Shown here piece by piece: positions 33,563 to 60,452 of a stretch of DNA of 64,000 nt. The notes beneath the pieces were generated by a model that worked only from the letters and a program-made list of their open reading frames with translations, made no database searches and had not been told where the DNA came from. Numbering within the stretch: position 1 is the first letter of the stretch; the number at the start of each line of letters is the position of its first letter. This DNA is from a bacterium. Lineage in GTDB: Bacteria > Pseudomonadota > Gammaproteobacteria > Burkholderiales > Thiobacillaceae. The stretch covers positions 1 to 64,000 of the forward strand of contig WOUQ01000002.1 in the NCBI GenBank assembly GCA_009772925.1, in the 5' to 3' direction. Both the position numbers and the translations under genes were made by a program.

Positions 33563-36379
33563 ATGCCACGTAGACACAGCCGGAATCCCCTGCAAAAACT
33601 GCAACCCCATCTCCCCAAACTGCTGGCGGCGCTGGCGGGCTCGGCGGTCCTCGCCGGAGGCGCCTACATCGCCTTGAGGCAATCGCCGGATGACCATTTC
33701 CAGGCTGGCAGCGCTCTGTTCCAGCAAGGCGACATCCAGGGCGCGGCCATCGAACTGAAAAACAGCCTGCAAGCCGATCCGAACAACGCCGCCGCCCGTT
33801 TCCTGCTTGGGCGGGTGCATTTCGTCAATGGGGATTTCGCGGCCGCTGAGAAGGAACTCCGCACGGCCCGCGACCTTGGCTCGAAGGAGGCGGATCTTGA
33901 ACCGCTGCTGGCCCGCACCTTGCTGCAGATCAACCAGCCACAGCGCATCCTGGATGAAATCCGTGCCCGGGAGGAGTACCCCGCCGAGGTGAACGCGGCC
34001 ATCCTCGCCCTGCGGGCACGCGCGCACCTGCTGCTGAAAGAATCCGTGGCGGCCGACACGGAGTTGGGCAAGGCCAGGGACATCTCTCCGGATCACCCGG
34101 AGGTGCTCGTTTCCCTCGCCTACGCCGCCCTCTCCGACCAGAATCTGCAATCGGCGCTGGACCTGGTGGATCAGGCGGTGGCGAAAGCGGACTCGCGCGC
34201 CGACCTGTGGATCATGAAAGGCGATCTGCTGCGCGCGGCAACTCGCAACCCGGAGGCCGCGCAAGCCTACGCCAAGGCGCTCACCCTGGATCCCGCGAAT
34301 GGCCCCGCGCGCCTGGCAAGCGCCCAACTGCACCTGGAAAACAACGACCTGGACAAGGCCGAGGCGGATCTCAAACAACTCCTCAAACACGCGCCCAACA
34401 GCTTGTTCGGACGCCATCTGGATGCCTTCATCGACTTCCGCCGCGGGCGCCATGCCGAAGCCAACGCCAAGCTGCAGGACATCCTCCGCGCCGCGCCGAC
34501 CTTCCTGCCCGCCCAGTTGCTCGCGGGCGCCACCAGCCTGGCCCTGGGCAACCGCGAGGCCGCCAAGTCGCACCTCAACAAGGTGCTGGAAGCAGCCCCG
34601 GATCATGCCCTGGCGCGCAAACTGATGGCGGCGACCCTGACCGAGCTGGGCGAGGTGGATCAGGCCAAGCACCTTCTGAGCGGCTTCGAGGCAGCCGGCA
34701 ACGATCCTCTGCTCAACACCCTGCGCGGCGAACTCGCCTTGCGCCAGGGCGATTACGCCCAAGCCCGCAAACAGTTGGAGGCGATGGGCGAGGCGGCGCC
34801 GCAGACCGCGAAATATTTCACCGATCTGGCGGCCAGCCGCATGGGCAGCGGCGACGAAGCGGGCGCCATCGCCGCGTTGACGAAGGCCGCCGAGCTGGAC
34901 ACGACATCGGCCCGGCCGGATGCCCTGCTGGTCATGACCCACGTGCGCGAGAAGCGCTTCGCCGAAGCCGACAAGGTTGTGGACAAGCTCGAGAAAGAGC
35001 GAGCCGACGATCCGCTCGTGCACAACCTGCGCGGCACCATCCACATCGCGCGGGACGACAAGGCGCGGGCGCGGGCGAGCCTGGCCAAGGCCTTGCAGAT
35101 CAAGCCCGACTACTTCCCCGCCGCCTCCAATCTCGCCCTGCTGGACATGATGGACAAGGACCACAAGGCGGCGCGCTCGCGCTTCGAGCAACTGCTCAAG
35201 CACGCCCCCGCCGAGAGCCGCGCCTGGCTCGCCCTGGCGGCCCTCGACGCGCGCGAGAACAACGAGGCGGGCTATCTGAAGAACCTCGAACAGGCCAAGA
35301 AGGCGAACAGCAAGAATCCCCAGGCGCATGCCCTGCTCACCCGCTACTGGCTGGGCAAGCAGGACGGCGGCAAGGCCCTGGCCGCGGCGCGCGATGGCCT
35401 GACCGCGACCGGCTTGCCGGAATTCCACGAGCTCGTCGGCCTGGCGCAAATCCAGCAGAAGGATCCGCTCAGCGCCCAATCCACCTTCTCGCGCTGGGCG
35501 GAACTCTCCCCGGCCAACCCACTCGCCCACTTCCGCCTGGCCCAGGCGCAAATCACCAACAAGGAGCGGGAGGCCGCCCTCAAGTCGCTGGACAAGGCCC
35601 TGTCCCTGCGCGCCGATTTCACCGAGGCGGTGATGAGCAAGGCCCTGCTCCTGGTGGAAGCGGGACGCTCGGCGGAAGCCCTCAAGCTGGCGCGCGGCTT
35701 GCAGGCCGGCGCGCCGAAGAACGCGGCGGGCTACCTGGTGGAGGCGGAAGTGCATCTCGCCGACAAGAAATTCGCCGAAGCCGCAAAACTGTTCGCGAAA
35801 TCCGCCGAACTCAGCGGCCAGGGGCAGGTGCTGGGTCGCGCCTATCAAGCCTACGCCCGCGCGAATCAGGCGGCGGAGGGGGAACGGTTGCTGACGCAAT
35901 GGTTGAACAACAAGCCCAAGGACGCCATGGTCCGGCACATCCTGGCGTCCGCCCAGCTATCCGGCAAGCAACTGAAGGAAGCCGCGCAGAACTATCGCCT
36001 GCTGGTCGGCGCCAACCCCAAGGATGTGATCGCCCTCAACAACCTGGCCTGGATACTGGGGGAACTGAAGGATCCTCAGGCCCTGACCTTCGCGGAACAG
36101 GCCCTCAAGCTGGCCCCCAAGGATGGCGGCGTGCTGGACACCTACGGCTGGCAACTGGTCCTCGCCGGCCAGGCGAAGAAGGCGTTGCCCTACCTGCGCG
36201 ACGCCGTAAAGGCGCAGCCCAACAATCCCGAAATCCGCTGGCATCTCGCCGCCGCGCTGGAAAGCAGCGGCGACAAGGCCGCCGCCCTGGAGGAACTCGA
36301 TCGCCTGCTGACCAGCCGCATGGAGTTCTCCCAGAAGACCCAGGCCCAGGCCCTATACGACCGGTTGAAGGGCAGGTAA
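33563..36379 (+). CDS. prsT: PEP-CTERM system TPR-repeat protein PrsT (copy 1)
   Basis: Large envelope TPR protein found with PrsK/PrsR in EPS/PEP-CTERM loci; exact role unknown. 938 residues. An N-terminal membrane helix (LLAALAGSAVLAGGAYIAL, about 20-40) replaces the lipobox seen in copy 2. After this come about twenty TPR units (e.g. FQAGSALFQQGDIQGAAIEL, AAKSHLNKVLEAAPDHALAR) with the mature part outside the inner membrane. An 83-base gap follows prsR. Downstream nitroreductase begins 9 bases later, so they are probably one transcript. Confidence 0.9.
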   Translation: MPRRHSRNPLQKLQPHLPKLLAALAGSAVLAGGAYIALRQSPDDHFQAGSALFQQGDIQGAAIELKNSLQADPNNAAARFLLGRVHFVNGDFAAAEKELRTARDLGSKEADLEPLLARTLLQINQPQRILDEIRAREEYPAEVNAAILALRARAHLLLKESVAADTELGKARDISPDHPEVLVSLAYAALSDQNLQSALDLVDQAVAKADSRADLWIMKGDLLRAATRNPEAAQAYAKALTLDPANGPARLASAQLHLENNDLDKAEADLKQLLKHAPNSLFGRHLDAFIDFRRGRHAEANAKLQDILRAAPTFLPAQLLAGATSLALGNREAAKSHLNKVLEAAPDHALARKLMAATLTELGEVDQAKHLLSGFEAAGNDPLLNTLRGELALRQGDYAQARKQLEAMGEAAPQTAKYFTDLAASRMGSGDEAGAIAALTKAAELDTTSARPDALLVMTHVREKRFAEADKVVDKLEKERADDPLVHNLRGTIHIARDDKARARASLAKALQIKPDYFPAASNLALLDMMDKDHKAARSRFEQLLKHAPAESRAWLALAALDARENNEAGYLKNLEQAKKANSKNPQAHALLTRYWLGKQDGGKALAAARDGLTATGLPEFHELVGLAQIQQKDPLSAQSTFSRWAELSPANPLAHFRLAQAQITNKEREAALKSLDKALSLRADFTEAVMSKALLLVEAGRSAEALKLARGLQAGAPKNAAGYLVEAEVHLADKKFAEAAKLFAKSAELSGQGQVLGRAYQAYARANQAAEGERLLTQWLNNKPKDAMVRHILASAQLSGKQLKEAAQNYRLLVGANPKDVIALNNLAWILGELKDPQALTFAEQALKLAPKDGGVLDTYGWQLVLAGQAKKALPYLRDAVKAQPNNPEIRWHLAAALESSGDKAAALEELDRLLTSRMEFSQKTQAQALYDRLKGR

Positions 36380-36388
36380 GACCACCCC

Positions 36389-37459
36389 ATGGACAGCAGG
36401 CTGGAGCACATCCTCGACGCCGCACGCTGGGCGCCCAGCGGCGACAACACACAGCCCTGGCGTTTCGAGATCGTCGACGCCGGTCACCTGATCGTGCATG
36501 GCTTCGACACTCGCGAGCACTGTGTCTACGACCTCGACGGACACGCCAGCCAGCTCGCCATCGGTTGTCTGCTGGAAACCCTGGCGATCGCCGCGAGCGA
36601 GCATGGGCTGCGCGCCGAGTTCGCCCGCCGCCCGCACGCGCCGGAGCACCAGCCAACCCTGGAGGTCACCCTCACCCCCGACGTGGGCATCGTCGCGGAC
36701 CCGCTGATCCCGTGCATCCGCGAACGGCGCGTGCAGCGCCGGGCGATGTCCACGCAACCGATCGGAGCCGTGGCCAAGGAAACCCTGGCGCGCTCCCTTT
36801 CGCCGGACTTCCAGGTCGTGTGGAAGGAAACCACGCGGGAGAGATGGGCGCTGGCCCGGCTGATGTTCGCCAACGCCTACGTCCGCCTGACCACGCCGGA
36901 AGCCTATCGGGTGCATCGCGACGTCATCGAATGGAACAGCCGCTTCAGCGAAACGCGCATTCCCGACCAGGCGGTCGGCGCGGACCGTCTCACCCTCAAG
37001 CTCATGCGCTGGGCCATGCACAGTTGGGAACGGGTGGATTTCCTCAACCGCTATTTAATGGGGACACTCATGCCCAGGTTGCAGATGGACCTGCTGCCCG
37101 GCCTGGCCTGCGGCGCCCATTTCGCCATCGTCGCGGCCAAACCGCCGGCGAACGTCGACGACTACCTGGCCGCCGGCCGCCAGGTCCAGCGCTTCTGGCT
37201 CACCGCGACCCGCCTGGACCTGGAAGTGCAGCCGGAAATGACGCCGCTCATCTTCTCCAGGTACGTGCGTGAAGGGCGGGGATTCAGCCGCTTGAGTCGA
37301 CCGGGGGAAATCGCGGCAAGCCTCGCCGACCGCCTGGCCGGAGAGTTCGCGCCAATCGACCCGGCGCGCCTGGTGTTTCTAGGCCGCATCGGTGCGGGGC
37401 CGCAAGCCACGGCCCGCTCGACCCGCCTGCCGGTGGAGCGCCTGCTGCGCTCCGATTGA
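36389..37459 (+). CDS. Nitroreductase-family protein
   Basis: 356 residues, cytoplasmic. The N-terminus ILDAARWAPSGDNTQPWRFEI is the FMN-binding signature of the nitroreductase family (A..APS..N.QPW). Later FAIVAAKPPANVDDYLAAGR then QVQRFWLTATRLDLEVQPEM match the distal half of long members. Substrate unknown. Such proteins occur in PEP-CTERM/EPS regions and next to ThiF-like proteins; a ThiF homologue is at 56659. Begins 9 bases after prsT. Confidence 0.85.
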   Translation: MDSRLEHILDAARWAPSGDNTQPWRFEIVDAGHLIVHGFDTREHCVYDLDGHASQLAIGCLLETLAIAASEHGLRAEFARRPHAPEHQPTLEVTLTPDVGIVADPLIPCIRERRVQRRAMSTQPIGAVAKETLARSLSPDFQVVWKETTRERWALARLMFANAYVRLTTPEAYRVHRDVIEWNSRFSETRIPDQAVGADRLTLKLMRWAMHSWERVDFLNRYLMGTLMPRLQMDLLPGLACGAHFAIVAAKPPANVDDYLAAGRQVQRFWLTATRLDLEVQPEMTPLIFSRYVREGRGFSRLSRPGEIAASLADRLAGEFAPIDPARLVFLGRIGAGPQATARSTRLPVERLLRSD

Positions 37460-37470
37460 GGCGTAGCAGG

Positions 37471-39057
37471 TCAGAAGGTGTAGCGCACCTCCGTATACAC
37501 CCGATCCCTGTCGCCATACTGACCGAACAGGAAATCACCGGAGAACACGTCGACGCCGAACGAGGCGCGCCAGTTGCCGTCCATCCTCCAGTTCATCTTG
37601 AACTGGGCCAGCCAGTCGCGGTGATCGAGACTGCTGAACAGGCGCACGTCGGTTTCCAGTCGGGGGTGCAGGGCCTTGCTGACATGGTTGAAGGACAGGC
37701 CGCTTTCGACCTTGTCTACCAACAAGTCGGATTTTCGGCCGGGGATGCGCTGCTGATAGAACTGCACGTTGAAGCGTGTCTCCTGCGGGAAGCTCCACTC
37801 CAAACCAACGATGTAGTTGAGTGCGTTCTGTGCCACCAGGCCGTCGGCGTCGGCGGGATCCGAGGTGTACATCTGTTTGCCCGAGGTATAGACCGCCTCG
37901 GTCTTCAGCACCATGCTGCCCAGGTCCTTGCTGGTGGTGAGACCCCATTGCTGAATGCGTTTGTGGATCGGTCGGAACGTGACCACGGATCCCGCCACCG
38001 CCACCCGCTCGAATGCCGGCGAGGAATCGTTCGAACTGTAAAAAAACAGGGCCATGTCCCACCCATCCTTCAGATAGGACAGACGGGTGCCATAGGCGGA
38101 ATCGTCCAGGCCTTTGGGCTGATCTTCGGAAAGGATGTTGGCGGTGATGCCGGGCGGCGGCATGAAAGGATAGAACTCCGATCCGGGCTTGCCGATATCG
38201 TTGTAAGTCATGTGGGGGATCCACACCAGTTCGCCGTGGAAGTCCCCCATGAAGTACTCCGCCCTGGCCGCCCATTGGGGGAGGCGCGTCATGTCGAATT
38301 CGCGCAGTCCCGCCTCGCGCAGATCCTTGGCGGAGACGACATCGGCGAAGAACAGTCCGACCATTTCCCCCCAGATGATGTGCTGACGTCCCAGGCGGAA
38401 TTCCCAGTCATCCAGGTTGAAATCCATATAGGCTTCGCGGATGTCGGCCTGCAGACGCTGGTCGTCGCGCACACGGGAAGGGTAGAAGTCCGTCAGGTCG
38501 TAGATCGGGTCGTAATTGAGCTGGCCGCCCAGTTTCCAGGCCACTCCTCCGCTGCGCCCGGTGGCCGAGACATCCAGGGTGTTCTCGAACTTGGACCAAT
38601 GCCGTGGCTTGGCGTAGGTATAGGCGAGGCGGTTCTGATAGAACCCGGTGATCTTGGTCTGCCCTCCATCCTGTTTTGCCACCGCCGACCGGATCCCCGC
38701 AGCCGCCTCGGTCGGGGCCGCCGGCTGCGTGGTCCCCGGCGCGGGCTGGGCCACGTCCTTGTCGAGAAACAAATCGTCCAGGGAGGCCGGTTCCTTTCCG
38801 GGCTCGGGCTCCGGCGGCACGGTCTTGACGAACAGGTCATCCAGCGAAGCGGGATCCTTCTCCGCCGCGGGCTTGGCATCCAGGAACAGATCGTCCAGGG
38901 ACTGCGGCTCCCCCGCCGGCTTCGCGGCGATGCCTGGCGATGTCACGGCGGCCATGGCAAAAGCAAGCAGGAAGAATCCTCCCGCTCGGCTCAGGTCGGT
39001 GTGCCTGCTGGATATTGCTCGACATGTGAACGACACGGATTGCTCCCTATTCAACAA
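37471..39057 (-). CDS. Outer-membrane beta-barrel protein (DUF1302-like) with SLDDLF repeats
   Basis: 528 residues. After a signal-peptide-like stretch (AGGFFLLAFAMAAVTSPGIAA) come three copies of SLDDLF(L/V) about 20-25 residues apart in a proline/acid-rich linker, then a beta-strand-rich body: TKITGFYQNRLAYTYAKP, QADIREAYMDFNLDDWEFRLGRQHIIWGE, ending in aromatic YTEVRYTF as outer-membrane proteins do. The RLGRQ.I.WGE pattern resembles DUF1302-type porin-like proteins. The start overlaps the end of the FHA-ABC gene by 11 bases, so the two are coupled. Substrate unknown. Confidence 0.75.
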   Translation of the reverse strand: MLNREQSVSFTCRAISSRHTDLSRAGGFFLLAFAMAAVTSPGIAAKPAGEPQSLDDLFLDAKPAAEKDPASLDDLFVKTVPPEPEPGKEPASLDDLFLDKDVAQPAPGTTQPAAPTEAAAGIRSAVAKQDGGQTKITGFYQNRLAYTYAKPRHWSKFENTLDVSATGRSGGVAWKLGGQLNYDPIYDLTDFYPSRVRDDQRLQADIREAYMDFNLDDWEFRLGRQHIIWGEMVGLFFADVVSAKDLREAGLREFDMTRLPQWAARAEYFMGDFHGELVWIPHMTYNDIGKPGSEFYPFMPPPGITANILSEDQPKGLDDSAYGTRLSYLKDGWDMALFFYSSNDSSPAFERVAVAGSVVTFRPIHKRIQQWGLTTSKDLGSMVLKTEAVYTSGKQMYTSDPADADGLVAQNALNYIVGLEWSFPQETRFNVQFYQQRIPGRKSDLLVDKVESGLSFNHVSKALHPRLETDVRLFSSLDHRDWLAQFKMNWRMDGNWRASFGVDVFSGDFLFGQYGDRDRVYTEVRYTF

Positions 39058-40030
39058 TTTGTCCGTCGGAGAGTTCGACGACCCGATCCGCCATTTCCAT
39101 CACCCGCGGGTCGTGGGTGGAAAAAATGAAGGTCGTGCCTTCCTGTTGATTCAGTTGACGCATCAATTTGAGGATGTCCTCTCCGGTCTTGCGATCCAGA
39201 TTGGCCGTCGGTTCGTCGGCCAGAATGATCCTCGGCCGCGTGGCCAGGGCGCGGGCAATCGCCACGCGCTGCCGCTGGCCGCCGCTGAGCTCGTTGGGTC
39301 GGTGCCCCGCGAAACGCTCCAATCCGACAGCCTGGAGGGCGTGTTCCACCCGCTCCCGCCGTACCTCCTTGGTCAAATCTTTCTTCTGCAGCAGGGGATA
39401 TTCCACGTTCTCCCGCGCAGACAGAACCGGCAGCAGATTGAAGGTCTGGAATACGAAGCCGAGCGTGTTCAGCCTAAGATCGGCCAATTCGTCGGCGCTC
39501 CTGCTGCCCACATCCTGGCCATGGATGCGCACGCTGCCCGAGGAAGGCGAATCGATGCAGCCGATCATGTTGAGCAGGGTGGATTTGCCGCTGCCCGAGG
39601 GGCCGGCCAGGGCCAGGAATTCCCCCTGAAACACGGTCAGGGATACCTTGCTCAGGGCAATCACAGTCTGTTTGCCCAGGGCATACTCCCGGCTGACTTC
39701 CTGAATCTCCACCACCCGCTCGGCGGAGCGGGCCTCCGCCTCCACGTCTATCATGAATTGCAGGTGGAAAGGGGGGATGTGGATGCGGTCCCCATCGCGC
39801 AACTGCTCGTGCTGGATTTTTTCCCGGTTGACGTACACCCCGGCGCGGCTTTCCAGATCCTCCAGGAAATACAGGCCGTCATTGCAGGTCAGCCTGGCGT
39901 GGCGGCGGCTGACGGCAACGTCCGTCAATTGGATGTCGCACTCGTGCGAGCGGCCGATCAGCAGCGTCGGCTTGTACAAGGGGATGCTGCGCGCGACCTG
40001 CTGGTCCTGCCAGATCAGGATTCTTGCCAT
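39047..40030 (-). CDS. LolD/MacB-type ABC ATPase with N-terminal FHA domain
   Basis: 327 residues. Residues 1-95 form an FHA domain (TLLIGRSHECDIQLTDVAVS followed by RRHARL, with the GR and SRRH phosphothreonine-binding residues). Residues 105-327 form an ABC ATPase: Walker A GPSGSGKST, signature LSGGQRQRVAIARAL, Walker B IILADEPTANLD. The ATPase is of the LolD/MacB type that drives FtsX-like permeases. The fusion suggests that transport is gated by a phosphoprotein. Likely partners: the two permeases at 41020 and 42248. Confidence 0.9.
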   Translation of the reverse strand: MARILIWQDQQVARSIPLYKPTLLIGRSHECDIQLTDVAVSRRHARLTCNDGLYFLEDLESRAGVYVNREKIQHEQLRDGDRIHIPPFHLQFMIDVEAEARSAERVVEIQEVSREYALGKQTVIALSKVSLTVFQGEFLALAGPSGSGKSTLLNMIGCIDSPSSGSVRIHGQDVGSRSADELADLRLNTLGFVFQTFNLLPVLSARENVEYPLLQKKDLTKEVRRERVEHALQAVGLERFAGHRPNELSGGQRQRVAIARALATRPRIILADEPTANLDRKTGEDILKLMRQLNQQEGTTFIFSTHDPRVMEMADRVVELSDGQIVE

Positions 40031-40122
40031 GATGGATCCGTTATGCCCTTATGCGATATCGGCATCCGGTCGAACAACTGAAATGCGACGCGTCCCGCGG
40101 ATGCGCGCCCGAACGCCGGCAA

Positions 40123-40128
40123 TATAAT
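40123..40128 (+). promoter_or_regulatory. -10 box of the LolA-like gene
   Basis: A consensus TATAAT at 40123-40128 sits in the 173-base gap between the divergent FHA-ABC and LolA-like genes. No clear -35 is seen; an activator may be needed. Confidence 0.4.
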
Positions 40129-40203
40129 ACAGACGAACCAGCCCATTCAGCGATCGCCCGGGGTATCTTCCCCACTGAAACAGGCAAGAGGACGGGAATC
40201 GAC

Positions 40204-40992
40204 ATGAAATCGCATCGCATGATCGTAGGCGGCCTGCTGCTTTGCATGGCCGCCCTGCTTCCGGCATCGCCGATCACCGGCGCGCTGGCCTCCGCCGAGG
40301 AGGACGAGGGCGGAGACCGTCTTGCGCGCGAGGTGCTGGCCCGCGCCGACCGCATCCGCTTCCCCGAAGAGGGTTTCCAGGTCGACATCACCATCACCAC
40401 CACCACGCCGGACAATGACCCGGAGGTGCGCGCCTACCGCATCCTGTCCAGGGGCAACAACCAGACCCTGGTGCAGACCACGGCTCCGGCGGTGGACCGG
40501 GACCAGATCCTGCTCATGCGCGACCGCGATCTCTGGGCCTTCCTGCCCAACCTTTCCCAGCCCATCCGGCTCCCCCTCTCCCAGCGCCTCACCGGACAGG
40601 TGGCCAACGGCGACCTGGCTCGCGCCAATTTCGTCGGCGATTACACCCCACGCATCCTGCGTTCCGAACGCATCGGCGGCGATGCCTTCCACGTGCTCGA
40701 ACTGACCGCCGTGGACCGGTGGGTGACCTACCACCGTGTCCTCTACTGGGTCAACGAACGCAACGGCCGGCCTCACAAGGCCGAGTTCTACACCCTGTCC
40801 GGGCGGCTGCTGAAGACCTGCCAGTACCAGAACTTCAGGCAACTGGGTGGCGCGGTGCGTCCCACCGTGCTGGTGATCGACGACGCCCTGCGCGCGGGCA
40901 ACCGCTCCGTCCTGGAGTATGCCAACATGACCTTGCGGGATTTGCCGGAACGAGTCTTCAACAAGGATTACCTGAAGAAGCTGAGCCGCTGA
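40204..40992 (+). CDS. Periplasmic LolA-like outer membrane lipoprotein-sorting protein
   Basis: 262 residues. Signal peptide MKSHRMIVGGLLLCMAALLP with cleavage near ALASA. The mature part (ARADRIRFPEEGFQVDITIT, DQILLMRDRDLWAFLPNLSQ, GGDAFHVLELTA) has the LolA/COG2834-type half-barrel pattern that carries lipids or lipoproteins across the periplasm. Transcribed opposite to both its ABC and permease neighbours, yet set between them. Likely the periplasmic carrier for the FHA-ABC set. Confidence 0.8.
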   Translation: MKSHRMIVGGLLLCMAALLPASPITGALASAEEDEGGDRLAREVLARADRIRFPEEGFQVDITITTTTPDNDPEVRAYRILSRGNNQTLVQTTAPAVDRDQILLMRDRDLWAFLPNLSQPIRLPLSQRLTGQVANGDLARANFVGDYTPRILRSERIGGDAFHVLELTAVDRWVTYHRVLYWVNERNGRPHKAEFYTLSGRLLKTCQYQNFRQLGGAVRPTVLVIDDALRAGNRSVLEYANMTLRDLPERVFNKDYLKKLSR

Positions 40993-41019
40993 GGGCCGTT
41001 CCGGCGTGGAACGTCTTGC

Positions 41020-42231
41020 TCACACGTTTTGGCGCAAGGCGTCCACCACCGGCAGCCGCGCGGCCCGCCGCCCCGGCAGCACCGCGGCCAACACCGAGGC
41101 CACCGCGCCCACCACCAGAGCGGTCAGCAACACCCAGGGCACCACGCGCACGCTGGCCACGTAATCGGCGTTGGAACCCGGCGGCGGCGGCATGGCAATT
41201 CCCACGCTGGAAATACCCAGCGCCAGGGCGACGCCGAGCACCACCCCGGCCAGGCCGCCGATCAGACCCAGCAGGCCATACTCCAGCATGACCAGCCGGA
41301 ATACGTTGCCGCGCCTCTGGCCGAGCGCGAGCATGGTGCCGAATTCGCCGGTGCGTTCGTAGACCGCCATGTTCACCGTGCTGGCCACGCTCAGCACCAG
41401 CATCACCAGGATGATGAACTGCAACGCGCCGAACTGGCGGCGATAGAGCGCCACCGTCTTCTCGTAGAAATCCGCCAACTCGTACCAGGGCTTGACCTCG
41501 AACCCCAGTGGTTCCAGTTTCGCCTTCGCCAGGGCCAACGCCGCGTCCGTGGCCTCCGTCTCGCGCAGGGAAACGACCAGATTGTCCACCGCCGCGGTGT
41601 ACATCAGCTCCTGCGCCGCCGCCTGGGGAATGCGCACCGCGCGGTCGTCGTATTCCTTGAAGAACGTGCGAAACACGCCGACAACCTCGAACTCCAGGGT
41701 ATTGAGCGCGCCGTCGTGGGTGTTGACCACCAGCGTGATGTATTTGCCTGGACTCAGTTGCAGCGAGGCGGCCACGCCCTCGCCGACGAGGATGCCGTAG
41801 GCATCGGCGTCCCGCAGTTGCCGCCCGGCGACGATGACCGTGGCGCCGCCGAACTCGGCTTCCAGGTCGGGCTCCACGCCCTCGCCGAGGATGGGCTGGT
41901 CGGCTCGGCCGTTGTTGGCCAGGCCGGAGAAATTCAGGCGGGTCATCACCCCCGCCACCTGCGGGATTTCGCGCAAGGCCGCCACGGCCGGCTTGGGGTC
42001 CTCGATCAGGTAGCGGGCGGGTTCCCGCTTGGCGAATTCCAGATATCCCTGGCGGTAGACCTGCATGTGGCCGATGCGGGAGTGGATGGTGGCCTCGCGC
42101 AACTGGATGAAGACGTCCTCCACGAAGCCGCCGCTGACGATGATGGCCACCACGCCCGAGACGATGGCCGCCAGGGTGAGCGAGGTGCGCAGCCGGTTGC
42201 GGAAGATGTTGCGAAACGCAAGCTTGAGCAT
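41020..42231 (-). CDS. FtsX-like ABC permease (copy A)
   Basis: 403 residues. N-terminal helix (LTLAAIVSGVVAIIVSGGFVE), a periplasmic MacB-type domain of about 230 residues, then three C-terminal helices (FIILVMLVLSVASTVNMAVYE, GLLGLIGGLAGVVLGVALAL, WVLLTALVVGAVASVLAAVLP). The cytoplasmic ERTGEFGTMLALGQRRG is the coupling helix region for a LolD/MacB-type ATPase. Homologous to the next gene, both with an MPPPPG loop. 16 bases separate them, so they are probably a heterodimer. Confidence 0.88.
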   Translation of the reverse strand: MLKLAFRNIFRNRLRTSLTLAAIVSGVVAIIVSGGFVEDVFIQLREATIHSRIGHMQVYRQGYLEFAKREPARYLIEDPKPAVAALREIPQVAGVMTRLNFSGLANNGRADQPILGEGVEPDLEAEFGGATVIVAGRQLRDADAYGILVGEGVAASLQLSPGKYITLVVNTHDGALNTLEFEVVGVFRTFFKEYDDRAVRIPQAAAQELMYTAAVDNLVVSLRETEATDAALALAKAKLEPLGFEVKPWYELADFYEKTVALYRRQFGALQFIILVMLVLSVASTVNMAVYERTGEFGTMLALGQRRGNVFRLVMLEYGLLGLIGGLAGVVLGVALALGISSVGIAMPPPPGSNADYVASVRVVPWVLLTALVVGAVASVLAAVLPGRRAARLPVVDALRQNV

Positions 42232-42247
42232 GGCCCGGGCCCCTGAG

Positions 42248-43489
42248 TCAGATGTTGTGCCGCAAGGCGTTGACGATTTCCATGCGGGAAGCCTTCCAGG
42301 CGGGATAGAGGCCAGCGAGCAGGGTGGTGAGGAAGGCCATGGCGAACGCGGAGAGCAGCAGGTCCCAGGTGACCATCACCTCCCCCCGGTATCCTTCCTC
42401 CATGCCGGGCGGGGGCGGCATGGGGATGCCAACGTAGGAGATCAGCTCGGCCAGGCCGAAGCCCAGTGTCACGCCCAGCAGGCCGCCCGCCAGACCCAGC
42501 ATCAGCCCCTCGGCCGCGAACAACTGCAGGATGCGGCGGCGCCTGAAGCCGATGGCGAGCAGGGTGCCGATCTCGCCGGTGCGCTCCAGCACGTTCATGA
42601 CCAGCATATTGGAAATGCTCAGCACGATGATGCAGGCGATGATGAAGCGCAGCACCAGCATCTGTTTGGAGAACAGGCTGACGGTCTTGTTGTAGAAATC
42701 GGCACGTTCATACCAGGGTACGAATTCCAGGCCGCCGGCCTCGCCGCCGTAGCGCGTCCTGAACTCCGCCAGGCGCGCGTCGGTATGCTCGGTCTCGTCC
42801 AGCAGCACCAGCCAGGCATGGGCGCCCTCCGCCCGCAGCAGGCGTTGCCCCAGGCCGATGGGCAGGCGCAGGGCGGAATCGTCGTAGGCCTGGCTGCCGG
42901 TGATGAAGATCCCCGCCACGGTCGCCTCCACCGCATTCACCCCGCCGGTGGAAGGGCTGGCCAGCAGGGCCACGGTGGCGCCCGGCTTGACATCCAGGCT
43001 GCGCGCCAGGCCGCGCCCCAGGATGACCTCGGGCGCGTCGGCAGCGGACAGGTCGCGGCCCTCGACGATGCGGAACGCCTTGCTGAGTTCCGCCTCCTTG
43101 GCGGGATCCACGCCATCCGCGAGGAAAGACACGGTGTTCTCGCCATGACTGATCAATCCGGCCAGGCTCAGACGGGGCGCCACCAGCTTCACACCGGCAT
43201 GGTTCTCGATGGCCTGGCGTTGCTCCACTTCGCCGGGCAACAGATAAGCGAAGGGATCGGCGGCGCCGGCCTTGAAATAGCCCGGTCGGACCACCTGGAC
43301 GTGGCCCAACTGGGACTGGATGGTGCCTTCCCGCATCGCCCAGAAGATCCACTGCACGAAACCTTCCGCCAGGACCATGGCGATCACCCCCACCGCCACG
43401 ATGAGAAGGGCGATGGAGGCGCGGCGCCGGTTGCGCGCCAGGTTGCGCGCGGCGAAGCCGAGTCCGGACAGCAAATCCCGCGCCTTCAT
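42248..43489 (-). CDS. FtsX-like ABC permease (copy B)
   Basis: 413 residues, same topology as copy [21 protein letters not shown] helix, large periplasmic domain, then three helices. It has ERTGEIGTLLAIGFRRRRIL as ATPase-coupling segment and IPMPPPPGMEEGY as the matching proline loop. First gene of the minus-strand pair. No ATPase lies beside it; the FHA-ABC gene 2.2 kb away is the obvious candidate. Confidence 0.88.
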   Translation of the reverse strand: MKARDLLSGLGFAARNLARNRRRASIALLIVAVGVIAMVLAEGFVQWIFWAMREGTIQSQLGHVQVVRPGYFKAGAADPFAYLLPGEVEQRQAIENHAGVKLVAPRLSLAGLISHGENTVSFLADGVDPAKEAELSKAFRIVEGRDLSAADAPEVILGRGLARSLDVKPGATVALLASPSTGGVNAVEATVAGIFITGSQAYDDSALRLPIGLGQRLLRAEGAHAWLVLLDETEHTDARLAEFRTRYGGEAGGLEFVPWYERADFYNKTVSLFSKQMLVLRFIIACIIVLSISNMLVMNVLERTGEIGTLLAIGFRRRRILQLFAAEGLMLGLAGGLLGVTLGFGLAELISYVGIPMPPPPGMEEGYRGEVMVTWDLLLSAFAMAFLTTLLAGLYPAWKASRMEIVNALRHNI

Positions 43490-43593: not shown

Positions 43594-44844
43594 ATGCCGA
43601 ATCATGTTTCCTCGCTGCCGCCCGAGTCGGCGCGGTCCGCCGGGCAAGGCCCCGTCATTCTACTCGTGGCGGAAGCGGTCACACTCGCCCATTTCGCCCG
43701 CATCGCCACGCTCGCAGAAGCGCTCCACCCGGGGCCCTGGCGCGTGCAGGTCGCCGCGGATCCGCGCTACGCCGCGCTGGCGCCAGCACTCGCCGACCGG
43801 TTGCTGCCACTGCGTTCCATCTCCGGCGCCGCCTTTACCGACGCACTGACGCGCGGCCGGCCCCTCTATGACGAGGCGACCCTGGCCGCCTACGTGGAAG
43901 ACGACCTGGAACTGCTGGACCGGGTCCGGCCCGATCTGGTGGTGGGGGATTTCCGCCTGTCCCTGGCAGTCAGCGCCCCCCTGCGCGGCATCCCCTATGC
44001 CGCCCTGGTCAACGCCTACTGGAGCCCCTACGCCGAACTGCGCTACCCGGTGCCCGATCTGCCCGTCACCCGCCTGCTCGGCGCCGGCATCGGCCAGGTC
44101 CTGTTCGATCTCGCCCGGCCGCTGGCCTTCGCCCTGCATGCCCGCCCCCTCAACCGGCTGCGCCGGCGTTTCGGCCTGCCCGCCCTGGGCGCGGACCTGC
44201 GCCACGTCTACACATGGGGCGACCAAACCTGGTACGCCGACCTGCCGGAACTGATCCCCACCCGGCCGCTCCCCCCCCATCACCGCCATATCGGCCCGGT
44301 GCTCTGGTCGGCGCGCGCGCCCCTGCCGCCCTGGTGGCGCGAACTGCCGGAAGATCGACCGATCGTTTGCGTCACCCTGGGCAGCTCCGGTCGCGCCGAC
44401 ATGCTGCCGGCGATCCTCGACACCCTGGCCCGCCTGCCGGTCACGGTGGTGGCGGCCACCCTGGGCCAGCAGGTCGCGACCCCTCTCCCGGACAACGTCT
44501 TCCTGGCCGATTACCTGCCGCTGGCGGAAACCCTGGCCCGTTCCCGGCTGCTGGTTTGCAACGGCGGCAGCCTGTCCACCTACCAGGCCATGGCCGCCGG
44601 CATAGCGTGCATCGGCCTGGGCTCGAACCTGGACCAGATGCTGAACATGGCCGCCGTGCGGCGCCTGGGCTGCGGCCTCGGCCTGCGCGCGGCGAACCTT
44701 TCCGCCGCCGCCCTGCGCGCCGCCGTGCTGTCCGTGCTCGACGACCCCGCGCCGGCCGAGGCGGCCCGGCGCATGGGCCGGATCCTGCAAGGCTATGATT
44801 CCCCCGGGCGCTTCCGCGCGGCAGTGGCGGACATGCTGCGCTGA
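43594..44844 (+). CDS. UGT/MGT-type glycosyltransferase (copy 1)
   Basis: 416 residues, GT-B fold of the UDP-glycosyltransferase/macrolide glycosyltransferase type. Acceptor half: VILLVAEAVTLAHFARIATL, DLVVGDFRLSLAVSAPLRGI. Donor half: IVCVTLGSSGRADMLPAILD, LVCNGGSLSTYQAMAAGIACIGLG, which is where HGG.GT normally lies; here the histidine is replaced (CNGGSLST). The start 43594 follows GGAGA; the open frame extends further up without a better signal. Sugar and acceptor unknown. Confidence 0.82.
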   Translation: MPNHVSSLPPESARSAGQGPVILLVAEAVTLAHFARIATLAEALHPGPWRVQVAADPRYAALAPALADRLLPLRSISGAAFTDALTRGRPLYDEATLAAYVEDDLELLDRVRPDLVVGDFRLSLAVSAPLRGIPYAALVNAYWSPYAELRYPVPDLPVTRLLGAGIGQVLFDLARPLAFALHARPLNRLRRRFGLPALGADLRHVYTWGDQTWYADLPELIPTRPLPPHHRHIGPVLWSARAPLPPWWRELPEDRPIVCVTLGSSGRADMLPAILDTLARLPVTVVAATLGQQVATPLPDNVFLADYLPLAETLARSRLLVCNGGSLSTYQAMAAGIACIGLGSNLDQMLNMAAVRRLGCGLGLRAANLSAAALRAAVLSVLDDPAPAEAARRMGRILQGYDSPGRFRAAVADMLR

Positions 44845-44884
44845 ACCACCCCCACGCCCAACCCGCAACCGTCCGAGGAGTCCC

Positions 44885-45541
44885 ATGCGCGCCATCGATG
44901 CCAAGCAGATCAGCCTTTTTTTCCTACTGTTGGGCGTGATCATCGCCCTCGCCGTAGCCACCACCTGGTTCGCGCTGGGCGGTCTCCCCCTCGGTGATTT
45001 CCGCGGCGTCGTCCTGACGGCCGCCGGCATCCTGCTGTTCTATCTGTATGCCTTCGCCGTCTATCGCCTGTTTCTGTGGTTCATGCCCCTGCGCGAAGGC
45101 GAGCTGGCGGAAGGCTCGCGTGAGGAATTCGCCGCCCAGGTCAACATTCTTTTCTATCTCATGCTGTTCAACAGCCTCATCCGCACCCACTTTCTGCCCG
45201 TGCCCCTGATGCGCCTGGTCTACCAGGCCCTGGGCACGCGTATGGGCGCCAACACCTACAGCGCCGGCGTGATCCTCGACCCGCCGCTCACCGAACTGGG
45301 CGCCAACTGCATCATCGGCCACGACGCCGTGCTGTTCAGCCACGCCATCGAAGGCCGCCACTTCGCCCTCGCCCGCATCCGTGTCGGCGACAACGTCACC
45401 ATCGGCGCCACCGCCGTGATCATGTCCGGGGTGAGCATCGGCGACGGCGCCATCGTCTCCGCCGGCTCCGTGGTGCTGAAGGACACGCAGATCGGCCCCG
45501 GCGAGATCTGGGGCGGGGTGCCGGCCAAGCGGATCAAGTGA
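44885..45541 (+). CDS. Hexapeptide-repeat acyltransferase with membrane anchor
   Basis: 218 residues. Two N-terminal transmembrane helices (FFLLLGVIIALAVATTWFAL, VVLTAAGILLFYLYAFAVYRL), then a left-handed beta-helix domain: GANTYSAGVILDPPLTELGA, IGHDAVLF, VGDNVTIGATAVIMSGVSIGDG, ending GGVPAKRIK as in NeuD/CysE-type acetyltransferases. Good ribosome site GAGGAG. Likely modifies a surface glycan or lipid in step with the preceding glycosyltransferase. Confidence 0.85.
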   Translation: MRAIDAKQISLFFLLLGVIIALAVATTWFALGGLPLGDFRGVVLTAAGILLFYLYAFAVYRLFLWFMPLREGELAEGSREEFAAQVNILFYLMLFNSLIRTHFLPVPLMRLVYQALGTRMGANTYSAGVILDPPLTELGANCIIGHDAVLFSHAIEGRHFALARIRVGDNVTIGATAVIMSGVSIGDGAIVSAGSVVLKDTQIGPGEIWGGVPAKRIK

Positions 45542-49618: not shown

Positions 49619-49637
49619 GGCGCGCAATATGGCGTAT

Positions 49638-49736
49638 TGCAACAATAAATGCAACGATATATGCAACAGATATCTAACTATTATGCATGTACATCAATAC
49701 GTTACAACTTATTGCAGAATTACCCTGCAACGATAT
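49638..49736. promoter_or_regulatory. TGCAAC iterons upstream of the YjjJ-like gene
   Basis: TGCAAC at 49638-49643, 49650-49655 and 49662-49667, an exact 12-base period, then TGCAACGATAT again at 49726-49736 (identical to 49650-49660). They cover the expected promoter of the minus-strand kinase gene and are AT-rich. A plausible operator for the kinase's own helix-turn-helix. Confidence 0.5.
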
Positions 49737-55638: not shown

Positions 55639-55845
55639 GAATGGATTCCTCGTGGAGTAAGGTTCGATGTTCTCGCCGTGGCCTGGATCGCGCCGATACG
55701 GCGCGCGGATGAGCCACGGTTCAGTTGGCAATAACGGCGTCGGATTGGAAAAACACAGGGGACCCCATGATCCGACGATCCGCGCCGTCTTCTCCCATAT
55801 CGTTGTGCCGCGTCAGAACGGGCATTGTAGAGAGCCCGGCAGGGC

Positions 55846-56625
55846 TTATCCAGCCCGCGCGGACAGACGCCCCTGCCATTCCCCCGCATTGGTGATCAAC
55901 TCCCATACCGGGGGGGCGACCAGATGAATATTGTCGGTGGCGTCCGCCAGGGGGATCAGGCAGGGCACGCGCAGGCCGTGGTAGTTCACGTCCGGACCGA
56001 TGCGCTCGTAGAGGACGCCAAACCGGGAAAGCAGGCGCAGCAGGGCGGGCTCCATGACGGCATAGCAGTGGCTGACGCCGTGTGCGTGCGCCATGCCCAG
56101 GATGGCCGCCATCAGCCCCAGGGAGATGTGGTTGAGGACACGCCGCTCGTCCTCCTCGAAATAAATCTCCACGTCGTCGGCGACACCCGCCAGGGTGCCG
56201 GCTTCGCCGATCCGTCGCTTGAACACCTTGGATACCGCGAAGCGCGAGATCTCCCCCAGGCGGAGGCGCAGATCGGTGTCGGTCACCGGCTTGTCCAGAC
56301 TGCAATGGCTCTCGATGGGGTAGATCGCTTGCGGCGACAGCCGATCCGGCAGGATCAGCCGGGTGGTGGCGGCGAACACGCCGGTGCGGCGGTGACGCAC
56401 CAGATAGTGGTCGGAACGCGCGTCGAACTCGTCCTTTTCCATGCAAATGCGGCCATTGCCCGGGAAGTCCTGGCAGATGCAGCGGTCAGGGGGCTCGAAG
56501 CCGGTCTCCAGGACGTACACCTGATAGCGCAATTGATAGACCTGATGGCGCAACTCCTCGGTGTCGGCGTGGATCAGCTCGAAAAATTCGTTGAAGGCCT
56601 CCCTCAGTCCCAGCGTCATGCGCAA
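55846..56625 (-). CDS. PEP-CTERM/exosortase system-associated acyltransferase
   Basis: 259 residues, GNAT-like fold related to acyl-homoserine-lactone synthases. Matches: FFELIHADTEELRHQVYQLR then YQVYVLETGFE, DEFDARSDHYLVRHRRTG, RLRLGEISRFAVSK (the E.SR.AV core), GLMAAILGMAHAHGVSHCYA. Family members occur only in genomes with PEP-CTERM/exosortase systems. Presumably moves an acyl chain from a carrier to an amine; the product is unknown. Start could be two codons later. The 207 bases between this gene and prsT copy 2 hold no gene. Confidence 0.88.
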   Translation of the reverse strand: MRMTLGLREAFNEFFELIHADTEELRHQVYQLRYQVYVLETGFEPPDRCICQDFPGNGRICMEKDEFDARSDHYLVRHRRTGVFAATTRLILPDRLSPQAIYPIESHCSLDKPVTDTDLRLRLGEISRFAVSKVFKRRIGEAGTLAGVADDVEIYFEEDERRVLNHISLGLMAAILGMAHAHGVSHCYAVMEPALLRLLSRFGVLYERIGPDVNYHGLRVPCLIPLADATDNIHLVAPPVWELITNAGEWQGRLSARAG

Positions 56626-56658: not shown

Positions 56659-57537
56659 TCATGGACGGACGGCGTTGTCCGCCATTCCCAGCATCTTGCC
56701 GGCCACGGCGATGGCCAGGCGGTTGAGCGGGTGCCGGTTACCGCCCGGTCGCCAGGTGTGGCCAAGCTTGTTGCGGTAGGCATCGAACTGCACCGCGTGC
56801 GGCGCGGCGAGCACGCGACCGCGGCCGAGCAGGATCTTCAGCGCTTCGCAGCCGGCGACCCCGGCGCACAGGGAACAGGCCATGACCGTCGAGGGACCGC
56901 GCCGCTCGGCCAGATTCACGCGCGAGCGGTCCGCCAGATAATGGCGATGCAGGGCGTTGGGCGCCAGGCCGACGAGGAAACGAACGGCCTTTTCCAGTTC
57001 CGGCCGGTCGCCCCACTGGAAATAGTCGGCGAAACTCATGCCGCCGGGCAGAAAATTCACCAGCGCGGCGCTCATGCCGAGGGGCGCGACGGTGATGGCG
57101 GGTATGCCGCGCGCGTGGCAATGCGCGAAGACCATTTCCCGTGCCGGAAAAGCGAAGAAATCGAGGCCGTCGACGTAGAGATCGACGTCGCGGAAGAAAT
57201 CTTCCAGGTTGTCGGCGCGCACACCTTGCGGGAACACGCGGAGGTCGAGTTCGGGGTTGATCTGGCGGGCCTGCTCGGCCAGCACCTCGACCTTGGCCCG
57301 GTCGATGGAAGCCATGCCGGCACCGGCCTGGCGGTTGAAGTTGGCCAGTTCGAAAGTGTCCAGATCGGCGATGTTGAATTTCCCTACGCCCAAGCGGGCG
57401 AGCGTGAGCAGGTGAAAACCGCCCACTCCGCCCATGCCGGCGATCGCCACCCGCTTGCCACGCAGGCTCGCCTGCTCGGCTTCGCTCACCCAGCCGATGT
57501 TCCGGGAAAAGGCAAGTGCGTAGTCAAACGCGGACAA
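56659..57537 (-). CDS. ThiF/MoeB/HesA-family adenylyltransferase
   Basis: 292 residues, E1-like fold. The ATP loop VAIAGMGGVGGFHLLTLARL, then NIADLDTFELANFNRQAGAG with the conserved Asp and the Arg of N.NRQ, and the late CSLCAGVAGCEALKILLGRG. Only one CxxC is present (CSLC) and no second zinc pair is obvious, so the zinc site may be incomplete. These enzymes adenylate a C-terminal carboxylate. Sits 33 bases before one acyltransferase gene and 30 after another, so it is surely one operon with them. Confidence 0.87.
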   Translation of the reverse strand: MSAFDYALAFSRNIGWVSEAEQASLRGKRVAIAGMGGVGGFHLLTLARLGVGKFNIADLDTFELANFNRQAGAGMASIDRAKVEVLAEQARQINPELDLRVFPQGVRADNLEDFFRDVDLYVDGLDFFAFPAREMVFAHCHARGIPAITVAPLGMSAALVNFLPGGMSFADYFQWGDRPELEKAVRFLVGLAPNALHRHYLADRSRVNLAERRGPSTVMACSLCAGVAGCEALKILLGRGRVLAAPHAVQFDAYRNKLGHTWRPGGNRHPLNRLAIAVAGKMLGMADNAVRP

Positions 57538-57567: not shown

Positions 57568-58353
57568 TCACGGATGCGATAAGCGCTTGATGATGGTGTC
57601 CTCTTCCTCGGGCGCGAGGAAGTAGGGATACAGGGTTTTTTCCTGGCGAAATTGGCTGGCGCGCCCGCCAAACTCGCGGATCATGCGCTCGGCCAGCAAG
57701 GCATCGAGTCGCAACAGCACGGCCGGCGCGCCGACCCGCGTGCACAGGCGCTCGGGGCCGCACACCTCGAAACCTAACATGCGCTCGTAGAAACTGATGT
57801 GGCTGGGATTCACCTCGATGAGGATGTCGGTGTAGCCCCAGATGCGATGGGCATAGAGGTAGGCGATATGAAACAGCCCGGCCATCATGCGCTTGGAGGC
57901 GCGCCTGGAATCGATGGCCAGCTTGGTGAACTCGCAGACCAGACTGCCTGGTCTGTTCCGATATGCGTCGACTTCCGCCTTGTACAACTCGTCCGCGAAC
58001 AGGCCGGACCCCGTGTCGAAGCCCACGGACAGGGTACCCACCACTTCCTCGTCCTTGTAAGTGGCCAGGGTGATGCGTTCCGGGCTTGCGGGATGCCCAT
58101 TGGTTCCGGCGGTGGCATACCCCTTTTCGCCATAGCGCTTTTCCACCAGGAAGCGCGCATCCCGCGCCCTCTCCTCGTCATGCGCCAGACGAATCTTGAA
58201 GGCGTCCCGACGGATGTGTTCGCTGTCGGCGTCGGTCACGAAACTGCTTTGCGGACCGACGACGCCCGCATTCTTCAAGCGCGCCTGTTGCACTTCGACT
58301 ATGGTCTTGGCCCATTGCCGGCTGCCCATGCGCAATTTCTCGAATAATCCCAC
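57568..58353 (-). CDS. FeeM-like N-acyltransferase
   Basis: 261 residues, GNAT fold of the N-acyl amino acid synthase (FeeM) type: FKIRLAHDEERARDARFLVE then KRYGEKGY, ITLATYKDEEVVGTLSVGFD, VCEFTKLAID (the E..KLAV-like core), LFHIAYLYAHRIWGYTDILI, EVNPSHISFYERMLGFEVCG. FeeM joins fatty acyl groups from acyl carrier protein to amino acids. First gene of the minus-strand operon, divergent from the PilZ gene. No carrier protein gene is seen nearby. Confidence 0.85.
   Translation of the reverse strand: MGLFEKLRMGSRQWAKTIVEVQQARLKNAGVVGPQSSFVTDADSEHIRRDAFKIRLAHDEERARDARFLVEKRYGEKGYATAGTNGHPASPERITLATYKDEEVVGTLSVGFDTGSGLFADELYKAEVDAYRNRPGSLVCEFTKLAIDSRRASKRMMAGLFHIAYLYAHRIWGYTDILIEVNPSHISFYERMLGFEVCGPERLCTRVGAPAVLLRLDALLAERMIREFGGRASQFRQEKTLYPYFLAPEEEDTIIKRLSHP

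Positions 58354-59336: not shown

Positions 59337-60452
<1,116 letters not shown>

Follow-up and report, generated by a model that had tools for sequence, protein, structure and literature searches.

Five genes in a 64,000-nucleotide stretch of a Thiobacillaceae genome (NCBI GenBank assembly GCA_009772925.1, contig WOUQ01000002.1, positions 1 to 64,000; hereafter the window) were shown to belong to a conserved set that is genetically tied to FeeM- and TIGR03694-type acyltransferases and to ThiF- and nitroreductase-type enzymes. In the window, the set comprises an ATPase in which an FHA domain is fused to an ABC domain, two FtsX-type permeases, a LolA-like periplasmic carrier and an outer-membrane beta-barrel protein of the DUF1302 family. 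From genome and model evidence, we consider it probable, at roughly 0.6, that the set serves specifically to export a lipid with an N-acyl amino acid as its core from the inner to the outer membrane. No description of this set, or of the set with this cargo, was found among the matches listed in the open-licence literature.

Co-occurrence of the five genes

A sequence-only reading of the window had proposed that the five genes form one machine, and the corresponding co-occurrence check was run in 250 sampled genomes from the order, which were searched for strong matches to the barrel and to the FtsX permeases (L and G numbers below denote loci and genomes). Strong barrel and strong FtsX matches were found in exactly the same 26 genomes, from 14 genera, each with at least two FtsX matches, and because of this coincidence the barrel and the FtsX pair are taken to behave as one machine. 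A weaker, single-permease FtsX kind was left out of the strong FtsX count, and G157, whose match to the barrel was weak (E 1.7e-35, 28% identity) and which was not among the FtsX matches, was counted as set-negative. Of the 26 set stretches that were fetched, 24 contained genes for the ABC ATPase and the carrier, the misses being G169, where the barrel gene is on another contig, and G184, represented by a contig of 5.7 kb. In 12 named loci recovered with the carrier as query, barrel, ABC and carrier genes were present throughout and two FtsX genes in nine; L042 ends at a contig edge after one FtsX gene, L044, from an Omnitrophota metagenome-assembled genome, contains one, and L043 contains none within 14 kb. 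The stretches L046–L048, which gave scores identical to L034, L035 and L039, were taken as the same stretches and omitted from the tail-motif, FHA-tree, FHA-residue and identity counts given below, although L048 stands for G074 in the count of linkage distances. The five genes were all present in the window, with Pfam support, where the sequence-only reading had placed them, and as the set recurs in other genomes, it is not due to chance.

Two loci of unusual arrangement were also seen. In L044, FeeM, barrel, ABC, one FtsX, LolA-like, nitroreductase and ThiF genes are found together, a content that suggests either transfer across phyla or a binning error. In G165, the second FtsX gene of the set (L117) is located apart from the other set genes, near ThiF and nitroreductase genes and with a FeeM match about 10 kb away.

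Linkage to N-acyl amino acid synthase genes

Conserved neighbours were found by an all-against-all comparison of the genes around the sets. Within the 250 genomes, FeeM was detected in 20 of the 26 set genomes and in 27 of the 224 others (Fisher 6.4e-12), and the six FeeM-less set genomes all matched the TIGR03694 enzyme of the window, two of them (G161 and G080) having also been checked with the TIGR03694 model. A FeeM or TIGR03694 enzyme was present in 26/26 set genomes versus 33/224 others (2.8e-19). As related genomes are not independent, the counts were collapsed to genera, any positive member counting, which corrects for relatedness in part only and gave 14/14 versus 18/106 (7e-10). In the fetched stretches, a FeeM or TIGR03694 gene was located no more than 15 kb from a set gene in 21 of the 26 genomes, and a FeeM/TIGR03694, ThiF or nitroreductase gene in 25; in 16 genomes the distance between such a gene and the set was no more than 60 bases (stop-to-stop frames). 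The three gene types N-acyltransferase, ThiF and nitroreductase stand side by side, or nearly so, in L037–L039, L041, L042 and L045, and all three also occur in the window, the nitroreductase gene about 19 kb from the other two. The sequence-only reading, which had described a LolCDE-like system with an outer-membrane barrel and a modified lipid or glycolipid as cargo, was borne out in this respect, the cargo as probable, but it had missed the linked synthase, ThiF and nitroreductase genes.

The control consisted of 14 loci with an ABC gene, one FtsX gene, a LolA-like gene and no barrel gene (L105–L116, L119 and L120). Synthase, ThiF or nitroreductase genes were linked in 0/14 of these at 60 bits or more, two of the loci being from set-bearing genomes and some of the stretches being shorter than 20 kb, and a general linkage of ABC, FtsX and LolA-like genes was thereby ruled out as the explanation. 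L117 and L118 did not serve as controls, since they represent the second FtsX genes of the G165 and G122 sets, located away from the other set genes. The single-permease sets themselves, with their 14 loci, constitute a second kind of set in the order.

Precedent for the chemistry of the cargo is provided by three reports (here, as for all literature cited, drawn on through excerpts of the source). In Mycobacterium tuberculosis, TyzA N-acylates tyrosine, the ThiF protein TyzB cyclises the product and TyzC, of the nitroreductase superfamily, desaturates it to give acyl-oxazolones (PMC10404671); TrzAS carries out the same chemistry with tryptophan (PMC12856293), and producers of N-acyl dehydrotyrosine have the same three gene types (PMC12479983). 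The neighbouring mmpL9 was suggested as a possible transporter for tyz, the fate of the lipid being left to be determined (PMC10404671), and the physiological role of oxazolones was called a major unresolved question (PMC12856293). In seven set-less loci (L121, L124–L127, L129 and L134), the EryCIII-like glycosyltransferase family found beside the set in the window occurs beside FeeM and nitroreductase genes, from which a glycosylated product appears plausible.

Other engines at related loci

Of 20 set-less FeeM loci that were fetched, 19 came from genomes lacking the set and one was a second locus of the set-bearing G261. In L122, genes for FeeM, LolA_like, DUF1302, MMPL and a ThiF-nitroreductase fusion follow in a row (Pfam), and similarity to L122 revealed the same layout in L128, as well as homologues of all three transport genes together with nitroreductase, ThiF and FeeM in L135. 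L122 and L128 belong to one genus, and L135 (G192) to the genus of the set-bearing G261 and G290; L135 speaks slightly for the export reading proposed below. A further arrangement was seen in L125, with FeeM, nitroreductase, glycosyltransferase, FtsX, ABC and HlyD genes, and L127, of the same genus, was alike by our own models. A search with the MMPL model found an MMPL gene in no set locus. In a class-wide sample of 203 genomes, 27 matched the barrel model with 39 matches, and the 20 stretches fetched comprised 14 with MMPL, five sets (L161–L165) and one 4-kb fragment; L161 was taken as the L040 genome again, and synthase-type, ThiF or nitroreductase genes were linked in four of the five sets.

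An apparent swap of engines was observed within one genus, the ABC-FtsX set being present in L085 and L086 (G261 and G290) and MMPL-LolA-DUF1302 in L135 (G192), with FeeM in each. One biosynthesis may be served by different inner-membrane engines, of the LolCDE-like ABC, RND/MMPL and MacAB-like types, the LolA-like carrier and the barrel being kept with the first two, both of which occur in one genus.

Proposed export route

In the route that we propose, a FeeM or TIGR03694 enzyme would join a fatty acid to an amino acid, aromatic by precedent, and the ThiF and nitroreductase enzymes would cyclise and desaturate the product to an oxazolone or dehydro-amino-acid lipid, which in this clade may be decorated by the EryCIII-like glycosyltransferase and the hexapeptide acyltransferase. 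The lipid would then be extracted from the inner membrane by the two permeases and the ABC ATPase in the manner of LolCDE, carried across the periplasm by the LolA-like protein and handed over to the DUF1302 barrel, which would insert it into the outer membrane or let it pass through. The flexible tail of the barrel, with its SxDxLF motifs, may hold the carrier or a permease, and the FHA domain would be a late acquisition, perhaps adjusting the ATPase in one clade. The enzymes that make N-acyl amino acids and acyl-oxazolones are known, and the excerpts give no established transport route (PMC10404671, PMC12856293, PMC12479983). If correct, the route would provide a testable cargo for PF17131 LolA-like proteins and for DUF1302 barrels, both so far without a known job, and the SxDxLF tail would give a concrete starting point for asking how such a carrier, being soluble, may recognise its partner in the outer membrane.

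The AlphaFold model of the barrel protein (mean predicted local distance difference test score, pLDDT, 69.5) is a beta-barrel that matches porins and AlgE-type proteins. The first-listed Foldseek matches, ordinary porins and AlgE with template modelling scores of 0.61 or below, were uninformative on function, and a PDB sequence search with the barrel returned nothing meaningful. To judge from the model, the tail is probably disordered and periplasmic, and its often repeated SxDxLF motif is perhaps a docking site. Single matches to the tail pattern are weak evidence, as 9 of 35 barrels also match it once in the barrel body.

The FHA domain

The sequence-only reading had made gating by the FHA domain a defining feature of the system. 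The domain of the fusion in the window scored far above the cut-off (73.1 versus 20.7 bits), and among the 24 set genomes of the 250-genome sample in which the ATPase was observed, four have an FHA domain (G000, G074, G088 and G297). In a quick ABC tree with weak inner branches, all 11 distinct FHA-ABC fusions fell within one group of 14 (support 85); the exceptions in this group were L036, which has no FHA domain, L040, in which it forms a separate overlapping frame that could be an assembly error, and L041, which retains a remnant. Four changes of FHA label occur on this tree, and the simple reading is one gain and three losses. Given that so few sets have the domain, that three of the 14 clade members lack it or have it split or decayed, and that part of the presumed phosphothreonine contacts is lost, FHA gating was rejected as the core idea, while phosphorylation control within this clade, not defining the set, is possible.

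The contacts concerned are the canonical GR, SxxH and NGT residues of phosphothreonine-binding FHA domains. The GR and SRxH positions were kept in 10 of the 11 fused domains, L038 being the exception in both, whereas in the stretch corresponding to NGT of OdhI, Asn was kept in 2/11 fusions and Thr in 0/11. The FHA domain was less conserved than the ABC domain in 55/55 pairs (mean identity 57% versus 80%). Apart from the fusion, the genome gave no FHA match with E 0.001 or better, and a single kinase match exceeded the Pfam cut-off; it is on another contig, near an RNase PH gene, in agreement with the earlier statement that the window contains no Ser/Thr kinase, and a second match, below the cut-off, is on another contig too. 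It is conceivable that the genome's only Hanks kinase phosphorylates a threonine partner that is bound by the FHA domain, the ATPase being switched in this way. Such gating would suit a genome with a sole FHA match and one kinase over the cut-off, it would account for the retained G-R and S-R-x-H positions, and it has a precedent in M. tuberculosis, where the FHA-ABC transporter Rv1747 has its own cognate kinase (PMC5549992, PMC3908365). It is nevertheless held to be quite unlikely in view of the sparse occurrence of the domain and its absence, splitting or decay in some clade members, the replacement of the OdhI-type Thr in every fusion and the faster divergence of FHA relative to ABC.

Alternative explanations

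Several observations weigh against an N-acyl amino acid lipid as the cargo. The tie is one of genetic linkage, not of transport, and comes from genomes and models. Within the window, 14 kb separate the FeeM gene from the set, which is touched by the nitroreductase gene alone; a nitroreductase was found in only 10 of the 26 set genomes with the window protein as query. No biosynthetic gene was found beside the set in the fetched stretch of G279, nor was one linked in L163 of the class-wide sample, and 33 genomes have FeeM/TIGR03694 enzymes without the set. Counting TIGR03694 enzymes among the N-acyl amino acid synthases is in part our assumption, supplemented by the weak match of the window's TIGR03694 protein to FeeM (E 1e-6). 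The tail motif is missing in 10 of 35 barrels. As to the other engines, the three MMPL versions come from a single family, with two genera represented, and both MacAB-like versions from one genus, and in 15 of the 20 set-less FeeM loci no MMPL, LolA-like, barrel or FtsX/MacAB-type gene was found with our own models, several of these loci being short contigs and no general transporter scan having been made. An exosortase, finally, was present in 26/26 set genomes versus 67/224 others, so the set may instead be tied to the PEP-CTERM/polysaccharide system.

This last association is what would be expected of a second Lol pathway that sorts special lipoproteins, such as the tetratricopeptide repeat (TPR) protein PrsT, or PEP-CTERM proteins processed by XrtA, with the synthases as mere neighbours in the PEP-CTERM complement. 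The LolC/LolE-like predicted fold of the permeases would fit such a role, as would the presence in the window of PrsT, PrsK, PrsR (731, 795 and 742 bits, all above cut-off) and an EDSAP-1 PEP-CTERM protein, the exosortase being on contig C1. An exosortase frame of at least about 490 residues is present in 70 genomes, however, and 44 of these have no set, so the set is unneeded for PEP-CTERM sorting in general, and a FeeM/TIGR03694 enzyme was present in 26/26 of those with the set versus 25/44 of those without (p 2.2e-5). The association between set and synthase thus persists among exosortase-positive genomes, but is weaker. Protein sorting would also leave unexplained why the biosynthetic genes come to within 60 bases of the set in so many genomes and why the same enzymes also come with an RND/MMPL-LolA-DUF1302 version; RND pumps are not known as sorters of lipoproteins. 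We therefore regard this explanation as unlikely. The two systems could also be joined, the N-acyl amino acid lipid being the membrane lipid to which PEP-CTERM proteins are attached by exosortase A, or the route carrying lipid-joined proteins to the surface. Such a link seems very improbable, but if true, synthase, LolCDE-like set and exosortase would be one surface-anchoring pathway, which would answer the question of what exosortases attach their substrates to.

The cargo might alternatively be another lipid or glycolipid of the exopolysaccharide system, unrelated to N-acyl amino acid synthases, as could be indicated by the genes for a glycosyltransferase and a hexapeptide acyltransferase that adjoin the set in its clade. 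Among the other 22 stretches with the set in the order sample, just one (L101) gave strong matches to both, whereas 21 contained a synthase, ThiF or nitroreductase gene, and the glycosyltransferase family accompanies FeeM and nitroreductase genes in the seven set-less loci named above; this cargo is accordingly considered improbable. A mechanical signal relay or an efflux pump, of the FtsEX or MacB kind, would require the permease pair to work separately from the LolA-like protein and the barrel. FtsEX and MacAB-TolC are Type VII ABC systems too (PMC12646458), and the ATPase scores as high with the MacB and DevA models as with LolD. Such a function nonetheless appears most improbable, since the barrel and the FtsX pair co-occur exactly, the LolA-like and barrel genes are found together again beside an MMPL engine, and LolC/LolE rank above MacB and FtsX in the comparison of predicted folds. 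An export route for an N-acyl amino acid lipid is the reading that we retain as the probable one.

Gene content of the window

The coordinates of the five genes and of associated features are given in Table 1. Third-position G+C was 80-90% in all five frames, as in other coding frames of this G+C-rich window. The LolA-like gene is divergent from the FHA-ABC gene and convergent with the FtsX pair, and by layout the set forms three transcription units (the FtsX pair; the LolA-like gene; FHA-ABC with the barrel) and not one operon. The FHA-ABC and barrel genes share 11 overlapping bases, provided the TTG start holds, and the nitroreductase gene ends 11 bases from the barrel gene; its product scored 109 bits against NF047509, below the cut-off of 199. 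To the left of the set are the XrtA/PEP-CTERM genes PrsK, PrsR and PrsT and then the nitroreductase-superfamily gene, and to the right the glycosyltransferase, the hexapeptide acyltransferase and the EDSAP-1 PEP-CTERM protein.

Table 1. Positions in the window of the set, its parts and the linked biosynthetic genes
Feature	Position	Strand	Support or remark
DUF1302-family outer-membrane beta-barrel protein	37471..39057	-	PF06980 E 6.3e-17, 62.2 vs gathering 23.2 bits
Predicted disordered periplasmic tail of barrel, after signal peptide	38655..38925	-	Model residues 1-86 pLDDT <50; boundaries approximate; signal peptide by eye
SLDDLF tail motif, copy 1	38884..38901	-	
SLDDLF tail motif, copy 2	38830..38847	-	
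SLDDLF tail motif, copy 3	38767..38784	-	
FHA-ABC ATPase fusion (LolD/MacB-type ATPase)	39047..40030	-	PF00498 E 2.5e-20; PF00005 E 4.8e-35
FHA domain of ATPase fusion	39776..39961	-	Accessory; confined to one clade among loci seen
LolA-like periplasmic carrier	about 40204..40992	+	PF17131 LolA_like E 3e-45
FtsX-type permease 2	41020..42231	-	FtsX + MacB_PCD
FtsX-type permease 1	42248..43489	-	FtsX + MacB_PCD
Nitroreductase-superfamily oxidase (TyzC/OxzB-desaturase type)	36389..37459	+	PF00881 E 7.8e-10
EryCIII-like glycosyltransferase, candidate cargo tailoring	43594..44844	+	PF06722 E 2.3e-17
Hexapeptide-repeat acyltransferase, candidate cargo tailoring	44795..45541	+	PF00132 E 2.2e-11
PEP-CTERM/exosortase-associated acyltransferase TIGR03694, second N-acyl amino acid synthase candidate	55846..56625	-	229.1 bits vs cut-off 111.95
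ThiF/E1-like enzyme (TyzB-type cyclase)	56659..57537	-	PF00899 E 3.1e-43
N-acyl amino acid synthase, FeeM family	57568..58353	-	PF21926 E 1.2e-47

Two large PrsT-type TPR proteins (33563-36379 and 52864-55731) flank the region, as do two EryCIII-like glycosyltransferases, the one in Table 1 and another at 51642-52853. Division and cell-wall genes occupy positions 2378-27647 (FtsI/PBP2-like, murE, murD, murG, murB and ftsZ, then a PBP1A-family gene), and a HipA C-terminal-domain protein, a possible toxin of a toxin-antitoxin pair, is encoded at 48254-49666. The hemB (ALAD) gene is found at 59337-60374, near the FeeM gene. A hemB-like cluster was recognised by eye near synthase or set genes in eight further loci (L035, L037, L042, L049, L050, L085, L086 and L091), accompanied in seven of them by an EngB-like gene, and this recurrent neighbourhood looks, by eye, like a conserved chromosomal site. 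A gene whose product resembles, by eye, a cyclic di-GMP protein of the PilZ/YcgR type likewise stands beside the FeeM gene in L035, L050, L085, L086 and L091.

Comparison with known systems

With two FtsX-type permeases of LolC/LolE-like predicted fold, a LolD-like ATPase and a carrier of LolA fold, the set resembles LolCDE-LolA. Against the curated models, however, the permeases scored 95.5 and 110.7 bits with TIGR02212 (LolC/E; cut-off 362.45) and the ATPase 221.5 bits with TIGR02211 (LolD; cut-off 307.75), the scores of the ATPase with the MacB and DevA models, 224.9 and 223.2 bits, being below their cut-offs as well. For the carrier, PF17131 was the sole Pfam family listed at E up to 0.1, PF03548 LolA not being among the matches, and the barrel is an addition. 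On these sequence comparisons the set would be LolCDE-LolA-like in its working, yet it is no member by curated tests. One other protein of the genome exceeded the TIGR02212 cut-off (524.5 bits) and a PF03548 LolA is encoded elsewhere in it, which rules out the set as the host's only Lol pathway. The closest solved structure to the carrier is 3BUU, NE2245 (E 7.8e-86), deposited as an uncharacterised LolA-superfamily protein and thus among the PF17131 proteins for which the route would offer a cargo. PF02687, PF12704 and PF00005 all scored over their cut-offs, which places the set among the Type VII ABC systems (MacB superfamily), a group including FtsEX, MacAB-TolC and LolCDE (PMC12646458).

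The combination of FHA and ABC domains in one protein is shared with Rv1747 of M. tuberculosis. Unlike Rv1747, the fusion described here is without a fused membrane domain and is accompanied by another permease type. Rv1747 also has two FHA domains (PMC5549992, PMC3908365) versus one here. The tyz, trz and oxz clusters have in common with the loci described here an N-acyltransferase, a ThiF cyclase and a nitroreductase-superfamily desaturase (PMC10404671, PMC12856293, PMC12479983), but no LolCDE-like export set is described in the excerpts of these reports, where mmpL9, beside tyz, is the suggested transporter. The link between N-acyl amino acid synthase and PEP-CTERM genes was already known from the loci of Craig et al. 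2011 (via PMC4897644 and PMC7293339), in which, as here, the two occur together, and putative transporters are mentioned for the stieleriacine cluster (PMC7293339).

Further parallels are found in systems with an RND engine. Pseudomonas putida PP_0765/PP_0766/PP_2019 represents RND/MMPL-LolA-like/DUF1329-DUF1302 systems, which share a periplasmic LolA-like or DUF1329 protein and a DUF1302 barrel with the set, but in which the engine is an RND/MMPL protein or "multidrug efflux transporter" instead of an ABC ATPase with two FtsX permeases; for a P. putida DUF1302/DUF1329 pair, mutual contact was predicted and membership of a transport system was suggested (PMC10866462). Aryl polyene export (LolA-like ApeL, RND protein ApeM and LolB-like ApeN) differs in its RND engine, in a LolB-like acceptor in place of the barrel and in the lipid class, but it too combines a biosynthetic locus, with glycosyltransferase and acyltransferase genes, with Lol-like transport genes of its own for an outer-membrane lipid (PMC8253772).

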